Source: Corallococcus macrosporus (GTDB taxonomy: Bacteria > Myxococcota > Myxococcia > Myxococcales > Myxococcaceae). From it: a stretch of DNA of 64,000 nucleotides. The translations under genes were made by a program, and so were the position numbers. Where the stretch lies: positions 1,674,001-1,738,000 of the forward strand of contig NZ_JAFIMU010000007.1 in assembly GCF_017302985.1 (NCBI RefSeq), in the 5' to 3' direction. Under the pieces are notes generated by a model. The model was not told where the DNA came from and searched no databases. It saw only the letters and a program-made list of their open reading frames with translations. Within the stretch, counting starts at the first letter, position 1. Every line of letters starts with the position of its first letter. This document shows, in pieces, positions 37,565-61,378 of this stretch.

Positions 37565-37571
37565 CGCGGTT

Positions 37572-39059
37572 TCAGCCGCGCAGGCCCCGGGGCACCAGCA
37601 CGCGGGCCACTGCTTCGAAGAGGCCGCTGACGGCGAGCGCGAGCACCGCCGCGGGCACCGCGCCCTCCAGGATGAGCCCCACGTCGTCCAGGCGGATGCC
37701 GGTGAGGATGGGCTGGCCGTAGCCGCCCGCGCCCACCAGCGCGCCCAGCGTGGCCGTCCCCACGTTGATGACCGCCGCCGTCTGGATGCCCGCGAGGATG
37801 GACGCCGCCGCCATGGGCAGCTCGACGCGCCACAGCCTCGCGCCGGACGGCAGGCCCAGCGCCTCCGCGGACTCGCGCACCTCCCACGGGATGCCCTGGA
37901 GCCCCGCCGCCGTGTTCCGCACGATGGGCAGCAGGCTGTAGAGGAACAGCGCCGCGATGGCCGGCTTCGAGCCGATGCCCAAGAGCGGAATCATGAACAC
38001 CAGCAGCGCCAGCGACGGCACCGTCTGGATGACGCTGGAGAGCCCCAGCACGCCCTGCCCCAGGCGCGGACGGCGCGCGGCCACCACGCCCAGCGGGATG
38101 GCCAGCGCGATGGCCGCCAGCAGCGACAGCCCCACGAGGAACAGGTGCTCGCGCGTGCGCTGCCAGACGCGGGACGCCCGCCCGTCCGTGCGCACCTCCG
38201 CCGTCAGCCCCAGCGACGCCTGGAGGAAGTCCGCGGCCACCTGCGCCTCCGGCACGTGCTCCAGCCGCGCGCGGGCGTTGAGCTGGACCATCTTCGCCTC
38301 CGACAGCGAGCCCTCCAGCCGGCCCAGCGCCCGGACCACTTCGGGCGTGCGCGTCTCCAGGTCCGCGCGGTAGAGGAGCACGGCGTCGTACGCGGGGAAG
38401 TGGTGCCGGTCGTCCTCCAGCACGCGCAAGCCATAGGCGGCCACTTCCGCGTCCGTGGAGTACAGGTCCGTGAGCTGGATGGCGCCGCTCTCCATGCCCC
38501 GGTACGCCAGGTCGTGGTCCAGGCCGCGCACGTCGCGCTGGGGCAGGCCGTATGCGTCGCGCAGCGCGGGCCAGCCGTCGCCCCGCTGCATGAACTCGTT
38601 GCTGAAGCCCACGCGCAGCTCCGGGTGGGCCGTCAGGTCGGAGATGCGCCGGATGCCCAGCCGCTGGGCCTCCGCTTCCTTCATGCCCAGCGCGTACGTG
38701 TTGTTGAAACCCAATGGCGCGCTCATCCGCAGGCCCTCGCCCGCGAGCGCCTTCATCAACGCCACGTCGTCCGGCAGCGCGCGCCCCACGAGCAGCTCCT
38801 GGCGCAGCGTCCCGGTGTACTCGGGGTAGACGTCCAGCTCGCCCCGGCGCAACGCTTCCCAGAGCACCGTGGTGCCGCCCAGCTCGCGCCGGTGCGAGGC
38901 CCGCGCGCCGGCGTCCTTCGCCACCTGCGCCACCATCTCCCCGAGGATGACGGACTCGGTGAACTTCTTGGACCCCACGCGCACCTGGGGGCCCCCGCCG
39001 TCGGTGCGCGTGCACGCGACGCCGGACAGCAGCAGACACACCAGCGCCAGCGCGCGCAT
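37572..39059 (-). CDS. Fused glycine-betaine-type binding protein and permease
   Basis: A 495-residue osmoprotectant-type ABC transporter subunit. A lipoprotein signal (SGVAC, Cys16) leads to a periplasmic OpuAC/ProX-like binding domain (~24-290, starting VRVGSKKFTESVILGEM), followed by five or six transmembrane helices (~300-490) with the permease EAA-type loop (ESAEALGLPSGARLWRVELP). Substrates of this class are choline, glycine betaine, carnitine or ergothioneine. The binding domain is N-terminal here; fused systems such as EgtU and OpuF-like proteins usually place it after the membrane part. Start ATG 39059 overlaps the ATPase gene stop as TGATG. Confidence 0.88.
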   Translation of the reverse strand: MRALALVCLLLSGVACTRTDGGGPQVRVGSKKFTESVILGEMVAQVAKDAGARASHRRELGGTTVLWEALRRGELDVYPEYTGTLRQELLVGRALPDDVALMKALAGEGLRMSAPLGFNNTYALGMKEAEAQRLGIRRISDLTAHPELRVGFSNEFMQRGDGWPALRDAYGLPQRDVRGLDHDLAYRGMESGAIQLTDLYSTDAEVAAYGLRVLEDDRHHFPAYDAVLLYRADLETRTPEVVRALGRLEGSLSEAKMVQLNARARLEHVPEAQVAADFLQASLGLTAEVRTDGRASRVWQRTREHLFLVGLSLLAAIALAIPLGVVAARRPRLGQGVLGLSSVIQTVPSLALLVFMIPLLGIGSKPAIAALFLYSLLPIVRNTAAGLQGIPWEVRESAEALGLPSGARLWRVELPMAAASILAGIQTAAVINVGTATLGALVGAGGYGQPILTGIRLDDVGLILEGAVPAAVLALAVSGLFEAVARVLVPRGLRG

Positions 39060-55766: not shown

Positions 55767-58031
55767 TCAGTCCCGGGGCGGCGGCCGGCGCGGCAGCTGG
55801 ACGAGGAAGGTGGTGCCGTCCTGGAGCGTGGAGCGCACGCGCAGCCGGCCGCCGTGCGCGTCCACGATGTGCTTCACGATGAAGAGCCCCAGCCCCAGCC
55901 CGTGCGCGGGGCGTCCGCCCTCGCGGGCCTCCGCGCGCTTGAGGGGCTCGAAGAGGTGCGGCAGCAGGTCCTGCGGAATGGGGTGCCCCTGGTTCTTCAC
56001 CGCGAGCGTCACCGACCCCGGCGTGCCGCGCAGCCGCACGCGCACCGGGCAGAAGGCGTCGCCGTAGGCGAGCGCGTTGTTCACCAGGTTGGTGATGACC
56101 TGCGCCAGCCGGTCCGGGTCGCACCACAGCCGGGCATCCCCCCGTCCGTCCACCTCCAGGCGCCGGTCCGGGTGGGCCTGCTGCACCTCGTCCATCACCT
56201 GGCGCACCAGCTCCAGCAGGTCCACGTCGCGCGGGGCCATGGGGATGCCGCCGCCCAGCCGCGCCTGGGTGAAGTCCAGCACGTCGCGCAGCATGCGGTG
56301 CGCGCGCTCGGCGCTGGAGAGGATGCGGGCCACGGCCTTCTGGTCGCGCGGGTCGGCGTCCTCGCGCTTCGCCAGTGTGGTGGCCGCCATGGTGATGGCG
56401 GAGATGGGGTTGCGCAGGTCGTGGCCCACGATGCCGATGAGCAGCTGCTCGAACTCCGCGCGGCGCTTCGCCTCCGCCTCCGCCTCGTGCCGGCCGGTGA
56501 CGTCCTGCATGGCGCCCACCATGCGCACCGGGCGGCCCTGGAGGTCCTTCACCACGCGGCCGCGGTCCTCGACGAAGGCCCAGGTCCCGTCGCCCCGCCG
56601 GAGCCGGTACTCGGCCATCCAGTGGCCCTCCGGGCTGTCGAGCGCCTGCTGGAGCCCCCGCACCACCCGTTCGCGCTCGTCGGGGTGCAGGCTGTCCGTC
56701 CACCAGGCCACGTCCATGACGGGCGGCCCCCGGGTCGGGTCCAGCCGGAGGATGCGCGGCGCCATGTCGCTCCAGTGGACTTCATCCGTCACCAGGTCCC
56801 AGTCCCAGATGATGTCGCGGGTGGCCTGGGTGGCCAGCCGGTAGCGGGTCTCCGACGCGCGCAGCTCCTGCTCCGCCCGGCGCCGCTCGGTGATGTCCAG
56901 CGACACGCCCGACACGCTGACCACGCGCCCGCCGGGGTCGAACACCGGCAGCAGGCGGACCTCGAACCACACGCCCATGAGGTACAGCTCCGTGGACAGC
57001 CGCTCCCCGGCCAGCGCGCGCAGGATGACCTCCAGCACGTCGCGCCGGTCCCGGAAGACCTCGAAGACGGAGCGCCCGCGCATAACCTGGGCGGGCACGG
57101 CCGTGGACGTCACGCCCTCGCCCTCGAAGAGGGTGAACACGCCCTGCGTGTCGAAGGCCCACAGCACGACGGGCAGTTGGGTGAGCACGCGCTGGAGCTG
57201 CTCGCGGGCCTCGTCGCGCTCCTGGCGCAGCGTGCGCGTGGTGGTGATGTCCGTGGACACGCCGCAGAGCGCCCACGGCTCCCCTTCCGCGACGCTGGGC
57301 AGGGGGAACTTCATCGTGTGGTAGAGGTGCGGCCCGTCGGGCTGGAGCACCTCCTCGTCGAACACCAGCGGCGCCTTCGCCGCCAGCACGCGGCGGTCGT
57401 TGTGCCGGAAGCGCTCCGCCGTCTCCTGGGGGAACAGCTCCAGGTCCGAGCGCCCCAGCACCGCCGCGCGCTCGTGGCCGGAGATGGACTCGAAGGGGCG
57501 GTTGATGAAGAGGTACCGCCCGAGCGCGTCCTTCGCGTAGATGGCGGCCGGGGCGTGGTCGAGGATCTCCTGCAGCCGCAGCTCCCGGCCGCGCAGCGCC
57601 TGCTCGTGTTCGTGGACGTAGTGCGCCACCGCCTCCGTCAGGCTGCGGTCCAGCGCGCGCCAGAGGGTGCGCAGCTCGTCCGTGCCGAGCGGCGGGTGGG
57701 ACGCATCCAGCACCTCCAGGATGGCCTCGCGCAGGAAGCTGTACTCCTGCACCAGCGTCTCCACGCGGGCACCGGACTGGAAGCGCCGCAGCCCAATCTC
57801 CCGGGCATGCGCCCAGACCTCCCCCTGGGCCCACGTCTCCACGGGCCCCTGGCGGAGGACGAGCACGAGCGCGTCCACCAGCTTGAGCATCCCCTCCAGC
57901 CGGTCCTGGAACTCCACGGACATGCCCGGCGGGGCCGGCTCCAGCCGCGCGCCCCAGCGCCGGAGGATGTCCTCGCGCCGCCCCTCCACGAGGTCCGCGA
58001 GCGAGTTCGTCGTGGACGTGACGGGGTTCAT
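55767..58031 (-). CDS. Multi-PAS sensor histidine kinase with RsbRD-like N-terminus
   Basis: A 754-residue soluble kinase. The N-terminal ~150 residues (NSLADLVEGRREDILRRWGARLE ... LVQEYSFLREAILEVL ... VAHYVHEHEQALRGRE) resemble the RsbRD/RsbT co-antagonist sensor domain. Three PAS domains follow (~160-290, 295-410, 410-530), then HisKA with His537 (IVGHDLRNPISAIT) and HATPase (NLVNNALAYGD ... HGLGLGLFIVKHIV). The G1 box is degenerate (KNQGHPIP in place of DNGxGIP), typical of HDLRNP kinases. The ATG at 58031 opens MNPVTSTTNSL; the open frame continues upstream without coding character. Confidence 0.87.
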   Translation of the reverse strand: MNPVTSTTNSLADLVEGRREDILRRWGARLEPAPPGMSVEFQDRLEGMLKLVDALVLVLRQGPVETWAQGEVWAHAREIGLRRFQSGARVETLVQEYSFLREAILEVLDASHPPLGTDELRTLWRALDRSLTEAVAHYVHEHEQALRGRELRLQEILDHAPAAIYAKDALGRYLFINRPFESISGHERAAVLGRSDLELFPQETAERFRHNDRRVLAAKAPLVFDEEVLQPDGPHLYHTMKFPLPSVAEGEPWALCGVSTDITTTRTLRQERDEAREQLQRVLTQLPVVLWAFDTQGVFTLFEGEGVTSTAVPAQVMRGRSVFEVFRDRRDVLEVILRALAGERLSTELYLMGVWFEVRLLPVFDPGGRVVSVSGVSLDITERRRAEQELRASETRYRLATQATRDIIWDWDLVTDEVHWSDMAPRILRLDPTRGPPVMDVAWWTDSLHPDERERVVRGLQQALDSPEGHWMAEYRLRRGDGTWAFVEDRGRVVKDLQGRPVRMVGAMQDVTGRHEAEAEAKRRAEFEQLLIGIVGHDLRNPISAITMAATTLAKREDADPRDQKAVARILSSAERAHRMLRDVLDFTQARLGGGIPMAPRDVDLLELVRQVMDEVQQAHPDRRLEVDGRGDARLWCDPDRLAQVITNLVNNALAYGDAFCPVRVRLRGTPGSVTLAVKNQGHPIPQDLLPHLFEPLKRAEAREGGRPAHGLGLGLFIVKHIVDAHGGRLRVRSTLQDGTTFLVQLPRRPPPRD

Positions 58032-58427
58032 GCCCGCGCCCCGGAGACACGGGTCGGACAAGGCAGGCCGCCTGCTGTCGGAAGAGTGAAGGTCACCGTT
58101 CCCCTGCTCCCTGGACATGGCCGGAGTGGAGAGAAGATGGGCACGGCGCGCCGTGGGATGGATGGGGCGTGCGGGAGGGGGTGGGGTGGGTTGCCCACCT
58201 CTGGGATGGGACCCCGGGGGGTGGCAGGCGGCCATGGCGGGCCATTGCGAACCGCTGGGTCCCACCCGGGACCTGGGGGAGACTGGCGCCCAGGCACACG
58301 GGAGGCAGCAGGCCATGGCATTCGCGGAACGCAGCATCGGAGGGCAGGGCGCGGACGCGCCGTCGACGGGGCGGTTGCCCCCGGGGACGGTCCTCCAGGG
58401 GCAGGCCCTGGCCGGGGAGGGCCGGTC
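58032..58427. other. 396-base divergent intergenic region
   Basis: Lies between the divergent PAS kinase and a hypothetical gene. It is G-rich (tracts such as GGGAGGGGGTGGGGTGGG around 58170-58189 on the plus strand) and contains no hairpin terminator or AT-rich promoter that I can point to. A small frame at 58315-58431 is discussed as a finding. Confidence 0.5.
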
Positions 58428-59135
58428 ATGATGACGCCCAAGCTGGTGGATCCGCTGGAGTCGCTGGCCCGGGGCCCCGTGCGCAGCCCCTGGGAGGTGC
58501 TGGAAGCCCTGAGCATCCTCATGCGGCGCTACAACGAGGGCCTGCCGTTGAACCTGCCGCAGGTGACGCTGTTCCTGCGCAGCGGCCGCGAGGTCATCGG
58601 GCTCGTCCGCGAGTACGGCGAGTTCCGCCAGGGCCGGGGCGTGCTGCTCATCACCACCGGCGGCTACGGCTCGCACGGGGAAGGCCTGGACGTGACGTTC
58701 GTGCCGGACGGGGTCATCGAGGCGCTCACGCTGCACGACGCCACGGTGCTGGACGCGCCCGCGAAGTCGATGCCCGAGTCCTCGCCCATGCACCTGCGCC
58801 GGCACCTGCCCGCGATGGCCGACACGCTGTCCAGCGCCTGGGGCACGAAGGTGACGGCGGAGTTCGGCACGGCCACGGAGCTGGAGCCGGACGCCAACAT
58901 CCAGCCCCTGGCGTGGCTCGTCGAGCGCACCGGCGAGGTGCTGAGCAGGCTGGCCTCGACGCCCGACGTGGGTGACGTGCTCCGGGACAAGGTGCGCAAG
59001 GTGCGGCTGTCCGTGGGTGAGTCCTTCGGGGTGAAGCTCGCGAACGGCACGCTGGACCTCACCACGTCGCGCCGTCCGCCGGCCTGGCCGCTGGACTCGG
59101 AGCTGGCCCAGGCGGTGATGGACACGCTGCCGTAG
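58428..59135 (+). CDS. Hypothetical protein
   Basis: A 235-residue soluble protein. It has regular beta/alpha segments: LNLPQVTLFLRSGREVIGLVREYGEF, GVLLITTGGYGSHGEGLDVTFVPDGVIEALTLHDATVLD, and a helical C-terminal half (MHLRRHLPAMADTLSSAWG, WLVERTGEVLSRLAS). The N-terminal part looks like a small Sm-like or beta-barrel fold. I do not recognise the family. GGAGG lies 7 bases before the ATG at 58428. It converges on the nuclease-like gene, whose frame runs on through this gene on the other strand. Confidence 0.75.
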   Translation: MMTPKLVDPLESLARGPVRSPWEVLEALSILMRRYNEGLPLNLPQVTLFLRSGREVIGLVREYGEFRQGRGVLLITTGGYGSHGEGLDVTFVPDGVIEALTLHDATVLDAPAKSMPESSPMHLRRHLPAMADTLSSAWGTKVTAEFGTATELEPDANIQPLAWLVERTGEVLSRLASTPDVGDVLRDKVRKVRLSVGESFGVKLANGTLDLTTSRRPPAWPLDSELAQAVMDTLP

Positions 59136-59639
59136 CGTGGACGCTGGCGGGCGCTGGCCCCGGGGGCATGGCGCCGGGCAGCGGCCCCACAGGCCCCTGC
59201 GGGAGCGCCGGGCCTCCTGCTCCAGGGCCTCGAACTCGCCGCGCCGGGAGGCACCGGCCGGCGGGATGAAGAGCGTGCACGCGTAGCCCCGCTGCACGAG
59301 CAGCGCGTTCACGTCCTGGCCGTCCACGGACACGTAGGCGAGCCGCCGTCCGAAGCGGTCCGTGCACGCCTCCGCGTCCCGCAGCCGCACCGTGCGGCCC
59401 TCCACGAGCGAGCGGTTGAACGCCGCGGCCTCTTCCCCGAAGCAGTCGTCGTGGCCCCGGGTCGTCTCCGGGGTGTCGGCGAGCAGGTAGCGGATCCGCT
59501 CGCCGTCCTGGAGCACCACGGTGTCCCCGTCGATGACCTTCGTCACCACACCCGTGGCCGGTCCGCACTCCCCTTCCCCGCCGCCACAGGCGGACAGGAC
59601 GGTGAGCCACAGCAGCCATCCCAGTCCCCACGTCCTCAT
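59136..59639 (-). CDS. Thermonuclease-like (SNase) lipoprotein without its own stop
   Basis: At least 168 residues. Lipoprotein signal LSAC (Cys18) and a staphylococcal-nuclease domain (~28-157): TKVIDGDTVVL, then the catalytic triad Arg50 (ERIRYLL), Glu58 (ADTPET) and Arg98 (DRFGRRLAY), ending RRSRRGLWGRCPAPC as in other secreted members. It starts on the 4-base ATGA overlap with the lamin-tail gene, so it is a true operon member. After the domain the frame has no stop codon for more than 3 kb; it runs antisense through the neighbouring gene and in frame into the PAS kinase. The given end is where the domain ends; the actual end is not defined by this sequence. Confidence 0.7.
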
Positions 59640-61378
59640 GGCGCGCACGTCCGGTTCTCCCGGCCCGGGGTGCCCAGGTCGCCCACGCCATAGGTCACAC
59701 CGGCGGGAGTGAGGCAGAAGGCCCCGGCCGCGTCGTTGCGTGTGGCGTCCCGTACACGTGCATCCAACTGCGACGACACACCGGGGCTGGCGGCGTTCGT
59801 GAAGGCCACCGCGTCCAGGACGGCTCCCTGCGCTGACAGCTTGAGCACATGGGCTCCCGCGCCGTTGCCCAGGCCGAACCCGAACGTGCCGAGCACGGCG
59901 GGCAACCCGCCGTTGAGCGAAGCGTCCTCGCCGCGCGCGAGGACCGCGAAGCCTCCGGCCTTCAGCGAAAGACAGAGGGGAGACTCCAGGACGGCGCTGC
60001 CCGCCTCGTTGGCGAGCGTCACCCCGTTGAGGTCCACCTCGCGCAGCGCGAGCACCTCCACCCATTCCCCCAGCGCATCCGGGACGGCGACGGGATCCGC
60101 CATGAACTCGGTGATCACCAGCGAGCCCACGGAGGGAGCGCGAAGCGCACGGGGCTGTCCCGTCGTCCGGTCAATGCAACCCGCCTGCGCCGCGCCCGCG
60201 TCCGTCCCGGTGCAGGTGCGGTTGCCGCGCCCCGGTGTGCCCAGGTTGCCCTTGTCACCGTAGGGTTCCGTGGCCGCGCACCAGGACGCCGCGACGTCGT
60301 TGCCCTTCGCATCGGCGGTGAGCGGCGCGGACACCTGGATGGCCACGCCATCCTGGGCCGGGCCATACAGCGCGCTGTCGATGAGCACGCCTCCCGCGCG
60401 CACGGCGACCCCTCCGCCCGCGTTGCGCAGGTCCACGGAGAACGTGGCCAGGGGCTCCGGCAGGCCTCCGTTCACCTCCGGCTCCTTCCTGCGCGCGAGC
60501 AGCGCGGACTCTCCAGCAGCCAGGGACAGACAGCGCTCCGACTCCAGCCGTGTGCCCTGGGTGTCCGTCCCCACCGTCAGCCCATTGAGGTCCACGGGCG
60601 CGGTGGCACGGACCTCCAGCCACTCGCCCACCGTGTCGTCGCCTCGTGGGTTGGCCATCACCTCGGTGATGATCAGCTCGCCGGGACGCGGGGGTTGGAC
60701 CTCCCGGGGAGAGACAGCGCCCGGCGGCAGGCACGTCGTGACGCCGGAAGGCACCCCGCCATCCGCCAGCGCGGGACACGGGGCGTTCGCGCTCCCCGGA
60801 CTGCCCCGGGTTGCATCCGGCGCATCACACCAGCGTGACGGGTCGTCATTACCCTCCGCATCGGGAACGAGCCGGCCGTCATAGGTCCGCGCCACGCCCG
60901 ACTTCGCCGGTGCGCCGAGCACCACTGTGTCGAGCACGCGCGTCCCGCACCGAAGGCCCAGCAACCCCGCGCTGTTCCCCAGCGCACCGAGCGCATCCCC
61001 ATAGGTCTGGTCCACGTGCTCGGGCAGTGCCCCCTCGCGCACGTCGCCCAGCACGACGAAGGCCCCCGCATCCACTGGCAGGCCCGTGGTGAACGTGTAG
61101 ACCCGCTCCTGTGCCGCCTCGTCGCGCGCGGTGAAGAGCGTCACGCCCAACAGGTCCACGGTCCCTCGCGTGGGGTTGTGCAGCTCCACGTACTCCCTGC
61201 CCGTGTCCGCTCCCGTGGGGTCGTTGAGGTACTCGGTGATGACCACGTCCCCCGGCAGCAGCGCTGCACAGGCTTGCGGCTCCTCCTCCCACGCCGACAG
61301 TCCGCACGCGCCCATCCATCCCACCAGACAACCCAATCCCAGCCTCACGCCCCATCCCCGCACTGCCCAAGCCGCCAC
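59636..61378 (-). CDS. Lamin-tail-domain lipoprotein
   Basis: A 580-residue surface lipoprotein (WMGAC, Cys25). Three lamin-tail (LTD) beta-sandwich domains are visible by their openings VVITEYLNDPTGADTGREYVEL (~43), LIITEVMANPRGDDTVGEWLEV (~235) and LVITEFMADPVAVPDALGEWVEV (~430), each closed by a Cys pair and a GxxGTPGRxNRTC or SPGSANAPC end. LTD domains in bacteria accompany nucleases and surface proteins and may bind DNA or polysaccharide. GTG at 61378 with GGGAG 7 bases upstream; its stop overlaps the nuclease-like gene start. Second in the operon. Confidence 0.85.
   Translation of the reverse strand: MAAWAVRGWGVRLGLGCLVGWMGACGLSAWEEEPQACAALLPGDVVITEYLNDPTGADTGREYVELHNPTRGTVDLLGVTLFTARDEAAQERVYTFTTGLPVDAGAFVVLGDVREGALPEHVDQTYGDALGALGNSAGLLGLRCGTRVLDTVVLGAPAKSGVARTYDGRLVPDAEGNDDPSRWCDAPDATRGSPGSANAPCPALADGGVPSGVTTCLPPGAVSPREVQPPRPGELIITEVMANPRGDDTVGEWLEVRATAPVDLNGLTVGTDTQGTRLESERCLSLAAGESALLARRKEPEVNGGLPEPLATFSVDLRNAGGGVAVRAGGVLIDSALYGPAQDGVAIQVSAPLTADAKGNDVAASWCAATEPYGDKGNLGTPGRGNRTCTGTDAGAAQAGCIDRTTGQPRALRAPSVGSLVITEFMADPVAVPDALGEWVEVLALREVDLNGVTLANEAGSAVLESPLCLSLKAGGFAVLARGEDASLNGGLPAVLGTFGFGLGNGAGAHVLKLSAQGAVLDAVAFTNAASPGVSSQLDARVRDATRNDAAGAFCLTPAGVTYGVGDLGTPGRENRTCAP

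Follow-up and report, generated by a model that had tools for sequence, protein, structure and literature searches.

A nuclease lipoprotein gene without a proximal stop codon throughout the genus Corallococcus

Stop-codon shifts and convergent overlaps between genes are known, as described in excerpts of two published reports (PMC4161906, PMC4494051). Here we describe a gene for a predicted SNase-domain lipoprotein (referred to as the nuclease) that has no stop codon shortly after its conserved part in any of the Corallococcus genomes analyzed. The gene lies in a 64,000-nucleotide stretch of Corallococcus macrosporus DNA (the window; contig NZ_JAFIMU010000007.1, positions 1,674,001 to 1,738,000), and coordinates below are those of the window. 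As in a stop-codon shift, a stop appears to have been lost and the frame continues into downstream sequence, and orthologs keep the stop (59 of 60 loci in other genera versus 0 of 16 in Corallococcus). Unlike a stop-codon shift, the frame here continues in each of the 16 genomes for 213 codons or more, runs antisense through a neighboring gene, and in eight genomes enters the frame of another gene. The convergent overlapping genes in the excerpt of PMC4161906 are similar in that the stop moves into the convergent neighbor, but in Corallococcus the frame covers the neighbor entirely or except for its first codons, and it covers the next gene too in eight genomes. The messages of arfA and brfA would likewise be without a usable stop; judging from the excerpt of PMC8012679, their nonstop RNA comes from a terminator or an RNase III site within the gene, and no such terminator was found at the Corallococcus locus. 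We found no report of this locus in the open-licence literature, and the papers found there on antisense open frames in GC-rich genomes had nothing on this point in their titles and the beginnings of their abstracts.

The nuclease frame is open for 1290 codons on the minus strand, from the ATG at 59639 to the TGA at 55769-55767. It begins with the nuclease itself (residues 1-158, ending at Cys158; 59166-59639), runs through the antisense of a plus-strand, convergent gene (58428-59135), crosses 396 nt of intergenic DNA, and then enters the gene for a PAS/HisKA/HATPase sensor kinase (55767-58031, minus strand), with which it shares both frame and stop codon. We set the kinase start at the ATG at 58031 by judgement, which gives a kinase of 754 residues (an estimated 83 kDa); there are further in-frame ATGs upstream. 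The continuation from Cys158 to the kinase start is thus 378 codons (58032-59165). A first-pass annotation of the window had described this frame, its coordinates and its path through the convergent gene into the kinase, and all of this was borne out.

The absence of a proximal stop codon was common to all of the Corallococcus genomes and absent from nearly all other loci. A protein search for the nuclease in 96 genomes of the family gave matches in 77, and we read the loci of all 16 Corallococcus genomes and of 60 of the 61 matched genomes outside the genus. In none of the 16 Corallococcus genomes did a stop occur in the 213 codons that follow Cys158. The frame ended 213 codons past Cys158 in four genomes (G022, G024, G026, and G030), was cut by the end of a contig after 289-330 codons in four, and reached the kinase in the other eight, running 919 codons in G029 and 1127-1133 codons in seven. 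In the other genera, 59 of 60 loci had 5-7 sense codons between the aligned Cys154 and a stop. The sole exception was in G013, whose match is distant (40% identical) and begins at residue 68; this genome was left out of the ratios of nonsynonymous to synonymous substitution rates (dN/dS), the tree, the survey of next stops, and the count of stop positions. The difference between 0 of 16 and 59 of 60 gave a Fisher P of 1.6e-15, which is overstated since related genomes are not independent. Among the 46 loci of other genera with a cysteine aligned to Cys158, 34 end at the third codon past that residue, 11 at the second, and one at the first. At this usual position, the third codon after Cys158 (59157-59159, minus strand), all 16 Corallococcus genomes have a GGN glycine codon.

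These differences fit a single loss of the stop codon on the Corallococcus stem. A tree built from 74 nucleotide rows placed all 15 Corallococcus rows on one side of a single branch (support 99/99); G026, a metagenome-assembled genome with half of the gene missing, was left out of the tree and of the dN/dS rates. We infer the event itself from the tree and the distribution of stops. The annotation had offered either mutation or sequencing error as the origin of the missing stop. The first is supported by its absence from all 16 genomes of the genus, and the second is contradicted by the same 16 assemblies, three of which (G018, G027, and G028) consist of one contig; we give an error of sequencing or assembly practically no chance. 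Relatives with a stop directly after the segment GLWGRCP, which the annotation had named as evidence against its claim, were seen in other genera and in none of the 16 Corallococcus genomes. They date the loss rather than refute the claim.

The enzyme encoded by the gene appears to be intact. The nuclease matched the SNase family (PF00565) with 71.8 bits against a curated cut-off of 21 (E 7e-20), with the domain at approximately residues 48-151, and chains of staphylococcal nuclease matched this domain with a best E of 6e-16. The sequence LSAC fits what we take to be a lipobox, making the protein a predicted lipoprotein. In the alignment, Arg50, Glu58, and Arg98 fall at what we take to be the catalytic SNase positions Arg35, Glu43, and Arg87, and Asp37 and Asp55 are presumably the aspartates of the metal site. 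All five residues were kept in the 15 Corallococcus genomes that cover this part of the gene, so the three catalytic residues reported by the annotation are present in each; at residue 56, alanine replaces threonine in 3 of the 15. The protein is thus like staphylococcal nuclease in its domain and presumed catalytic positions, and unlike it as a predicted lipoprotein whose gene has no stop of its own.

Selection on the nuclease does not appear to have been relaxed after the stop codon was lost. The dN/dS of the nuclease domain was 0.186 in Corallococcus (15 genomes), compared to 0.185 in genus g19 (26), 0.160 in g3 (6), 0.187 in g6 (4), and 0.326 in g26 (7). Because the value in Corallococcus is like those of other genera, we see no sign of relaxed selection on the enzyme, which is under normal purifying selection. 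A decaying pseudogene, in which the loss of the stop would be neutral, could be proposed from G026, where the first 75 nuclease codons are missing. The unchanged dN/dS, the conservation of the catalytic positions in 15 of 15 genomes, and an intact ATG start in 15 of 15 make this explanation scarcely credible. The 225 nt absent from G026, a Myxococcaceae assembly, are homologous to 59415-59639, and could reflect either a real deletion or misassembly.

The length of the frame is unremarkable; the lack of a proximal stop is what is remarkable. The convergent gene shares its codon boundaries with the nuclease frame, and therefore only TTA, CTA, or TCA codons in that gene make a stop in the nuclease frame. 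The DNA has a GC content of approximately 72%, and Leu codons TTA and CTA and Ser codon TCA are rare. From local codon usage, the antisense of the convergent gene is expected to be open in about 50-63% of genomes; across 15 genomes we saw four such codons, all TCA, against 8.4 expected. A 132-codon stretch like the intergenic piece would be open in one genome with a probability of 0.22-0.41, and the kinase frame would agree with the nuclease frame one time in three by chance. Among 39 gene-like frames in the window, from a crude call of its frames, the next in-frame stop after a frame's own stop was at a median of 51 codons, and in 12 of the 39 it was more than 214 codons away. Based on this survey and the in-register antisense gene, one lost stop easily gives such a frame.

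The convergent gene probably predates the loss of the stop. It encodes 235 amino acids, had no Pfam or NCBIfam match, and was matched in all 16 Corallococcus genomes, in G029 only as a remnant (residues 219-235). In that genome the gene was removed by a 639-nt deletion, a multiple of three, and the nuclease frame still runs into the kinase. G014 and G015 have the convergent gene at the corresponding position, with its end 20-22 nt past the matched end of the nuclease, and keep the nuclease stop; this co-occurrence is the reason for placing the gene before the loss. In g19, a kinase-like match follows the nuclease in 26 of 26 loci, and the convergent gene was unmatched in the stretch covered. 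In its own frame, the convergent gene had a ratio of nonsynonymous to synonymous differences (pN/pS) of 0.25-0.33 in the part nearer its N-terminus (overlap codons 121-200). In the C-terminal half (codons 1-120) the ratio was 1.05-1.17, though this half still aligns with G014 and G015.

The ten codons that separate Cys158 from the end of the convergent gene (the linker; 59136-59165, minus strand) vary in a way that weakly suggests translation in the nuclease frame. The linker is of the type (P/S)(R/K)G(R/Q)R(P/A). Its diversity by codon position was 0.244, 0.077, and 0.329, with column shuffles giving P of 0.029 and 0.052 for the nuclease frame, and its pN/pS was 0.44 (interval 0.26-0.75). Residue variation in the linker was lowest in the zero frame (P 0.052), with P of 0.25 and 0.97 for the other two; G026 and G029 were left out of these per-frame shuffles and of the pN/pS values for linker and overlap.

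The linker also bears on a programmed -1 frameshift that would end the nuclease shortly past its domain. The annotation had pointed out that the -1 frame ends at 59059, which is true of this genome, and 13 of the 16 genomes have a -1 stop 104-107 nt downstream of Cys158. In the remaining three, however, the distance is 62, 128, and 434 nt. Moreover, the stop lies antisense to a conserved gene, whose own constraints could preserve it. The 16 linkers, inspected by eye in alignment, showed no slippery heptamer in common, and their residues vary least in the zero frame. We found no support for a -1 shift as the way in which the nuclease ends, and think it very improbable.

We lean, with modest confidence, towards an account in which translation continues beyond the former stop and gives the nuclease a basic tail that is variable and dispensable. 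The SNase lipoprotein gene would have exchanged its stop codon for a glycine codon in one event on the Corallococcus stem, the difference in codons being what we observed. With an in-register convergent gene ten codons further on and with TTA, CTA, and TCA so rare, no replacement stop would have been near; the frame does run at least 213 codons in every genome, and the nuclease has stayed under normal purifying selection. Ribosomes would read on and the lipoprotein would receive a basic and largely unconserved tail, perhaps trimmed or tolerated outside the cytoplasm. The kinase would be made from its own start, and would have its frame and stop in common with the nuclease by coincidence. The length of the tail varies widely (213, 919, or 1127-1133 codons), and no decay of the nuclease was seen.

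Sequence variation in the overlap with the convergent gene makes a conserved domain in the tail unlikely, and translation of a short extension is plausible. Over the whole overlap, pN/pS was 1.06 (0.87-1.31) in the nuclease frame versus 0.66 (0.54-0.81) in the frame of the convergent gene. Variation at fourfold-degenerate sites was 0.189 in the convergent gene, 0.175 in the nuclease, and 0.226 at the start of the kinase (G029 left out). The fourfold sites of the convergent gene are as variable as those of the nuclease, and therefore this part of the tail is not constrained as a protein domain would be. The tail had no match to a Pfam or NCBIfam family. Coding on both strands over the whole overlap was considered and is unsupported by the fourfold sites and by the two pN/pS values; the first 80 codons are a hint only.

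Several observations weigh against a read-through nuclease with a dispensable tail. A tail of hundreds of residues is usually expected to harm folding or export. In the nuclease frame, pN/pS was 0.76 over overlap codons 1-40 and 0.69 over codons 41-80, versus 1.15 and 1.05 in the frame of the convergent gene, with intervals that touch or come near 1. When the linker and the first 80 overlap codons were shuffled together, P was 0.016 for the nuclease frame and 0.020 for that of the convergent gene, uncorrected for nine segments. The tail may therefore not be wholly unconserved. An AlphaFold model of the nuclease with its tail was uninformative (mean predicted local distance difference test score, 33), perhaps because the alignment of seven rows was too thin. 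Finally, the intergenic piece (58032-58427) was stop-free in the nuclease and kinase frame in 10 of the 10 genomes that span it, and a neutral simulation was stop-free across genomes in 0 of 600 runs, although this simulation predicts more stops than the other frames truly hold.

The stop-free intergenic frame is a weak hint. The other frames of the piece had stops in 5 to 9 of the 10 genomes each. Block shuffles of the same genomes (10 of the 16, as in the simulation) gave P of 0.003-0.019 at first. These shuffles drop gapped columns, keeping 368 of 396, which shifts the frame label, and the nearest frame then shows one stop, in G024, that is absent from the real sequence. Judged on the same gap-free columns, P for at most one genome with a stop was 0.017-0.08, and for the best of three frames it was 0.05-0.22. 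G024 and G030 keep the intergenic frame open despite a stop upstream of it, and its openness may therefore relate to the kinase rather than the nuclease, or be due to chance. The piece also contains strongly conserved blocks, for example at about 58296-58330, perhaps divergent promoters.

These data also speak to a long fusion protein of nuclease, tail, and PAS kinase maintained by selection. Such a fusion fits the continuation of the frame into the kinase, over 919-1133 codons, in 8 of 16 genomes, including G029 after its 639-nt deletion, and fits the indels of the intergenic piece, 8 of 11 distinct ones being multiples of three (binomial P 0.009). In this count, a 98-nt gap in G023 is one frame-breaking indel, and gaps at contig ends or at the ends of 2000-nt slices were uncounted. 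In three control intergenic regions, however, 8 of 21 indels were multiples of three, and the difference had a Fisher P of 0.068. In addition, four genomes have a stop after 213 codons, and frame-breaking indels of 1 or 98 nt are present in G021, G022, G023, and G025 (G022 also stops early). The intergenic piece had no codon periodicity (0.237, 0.225, and 0.236) and a pN/pS of 0.93 in seven genomes (pN/pS for the kinase is also from seven). Lastly, a lipoprotein signal would take a cytoplasmic kinase across the membrane. We consider a selected fusion very unlikely. The annotation had proposed a very long readthrough product as the alternative to a lost stop. The frame for this putative product does reach 919-1133 codons in 8 of 16 genomes but ends at 213 in four, and the tail is not clearly conserved as protein.

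The strongest alternative to readthrough is a nonstop message. If the transcript ended between the convergent genes, through Rho or by cleavage, the mRNA would be nonstop, transfer-messenger RNA (tmRNA) or another rescue factor would free the ribosomes, and export or release of the nuclease would precede tagging or occur in spite of it. The arfA and brfA genes are published cases, according to the excerpt of PMC8012679. The convergent gene ends 30 nt after Cys158, a tmRNA was found in the genome, and what lies downstream would be immaterial, which fits the unchanged dN/dS of the nuclease. However, tmRNA is general in bacteria and carries little weight, and the variation of the linker looks like that of translated sequence. 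There was no site resembling an intrinsic terminator near the junction, the only one in 58000-59700 being at 58152-58140, approximately 1 kb away, and the RNA fold at the junction was ordinary (z 0.29). We believe that a nonstop message is possible, though unlikely.

In a broader proposal, a working nuclease gene without a usable stop is kept genus-wide for one of two reasons. Its message could always be released by ribosome rescue, or ribosomes could run antisense into the kinase frame, with the frame rather than its sequence under selection, coupling expression of the nuclease to that of the kinase. We regard this proposal as doubtful.

A functional gene with no near stop, fixed across a genus, offers a natural test of which 3' ends of coding regions bacteria tolerate, and of the ability of nonstop or antisense translation to persist. 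Genes that share a frame and stop codon with a downstream gene may also escape gene callers in GC-rich genomes.

The nuclease is preceded by a gene with a lamin tail domain (LTD; 59636-61378, minus strand), the stop codon of which overlaps the nuclease start as ATGA. This overlap, also described in the annotation, was present in the 15 Corallococcus genomes with a complete 5' end. The LTD and nuclease genes look like a conserved pair, with an LTD match in the stretch covered at 58 of the 60 loci from other genera; the match was absent from G013, with its distant nuclease, and from G052, where little upstream DNA was covered. The control region at 37565-38144 is well conserved in the genus, has a GC content of 74-75%, and has one reverse frame that is open in 10 of 10 genomes. 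It may hold an uncalled gene.

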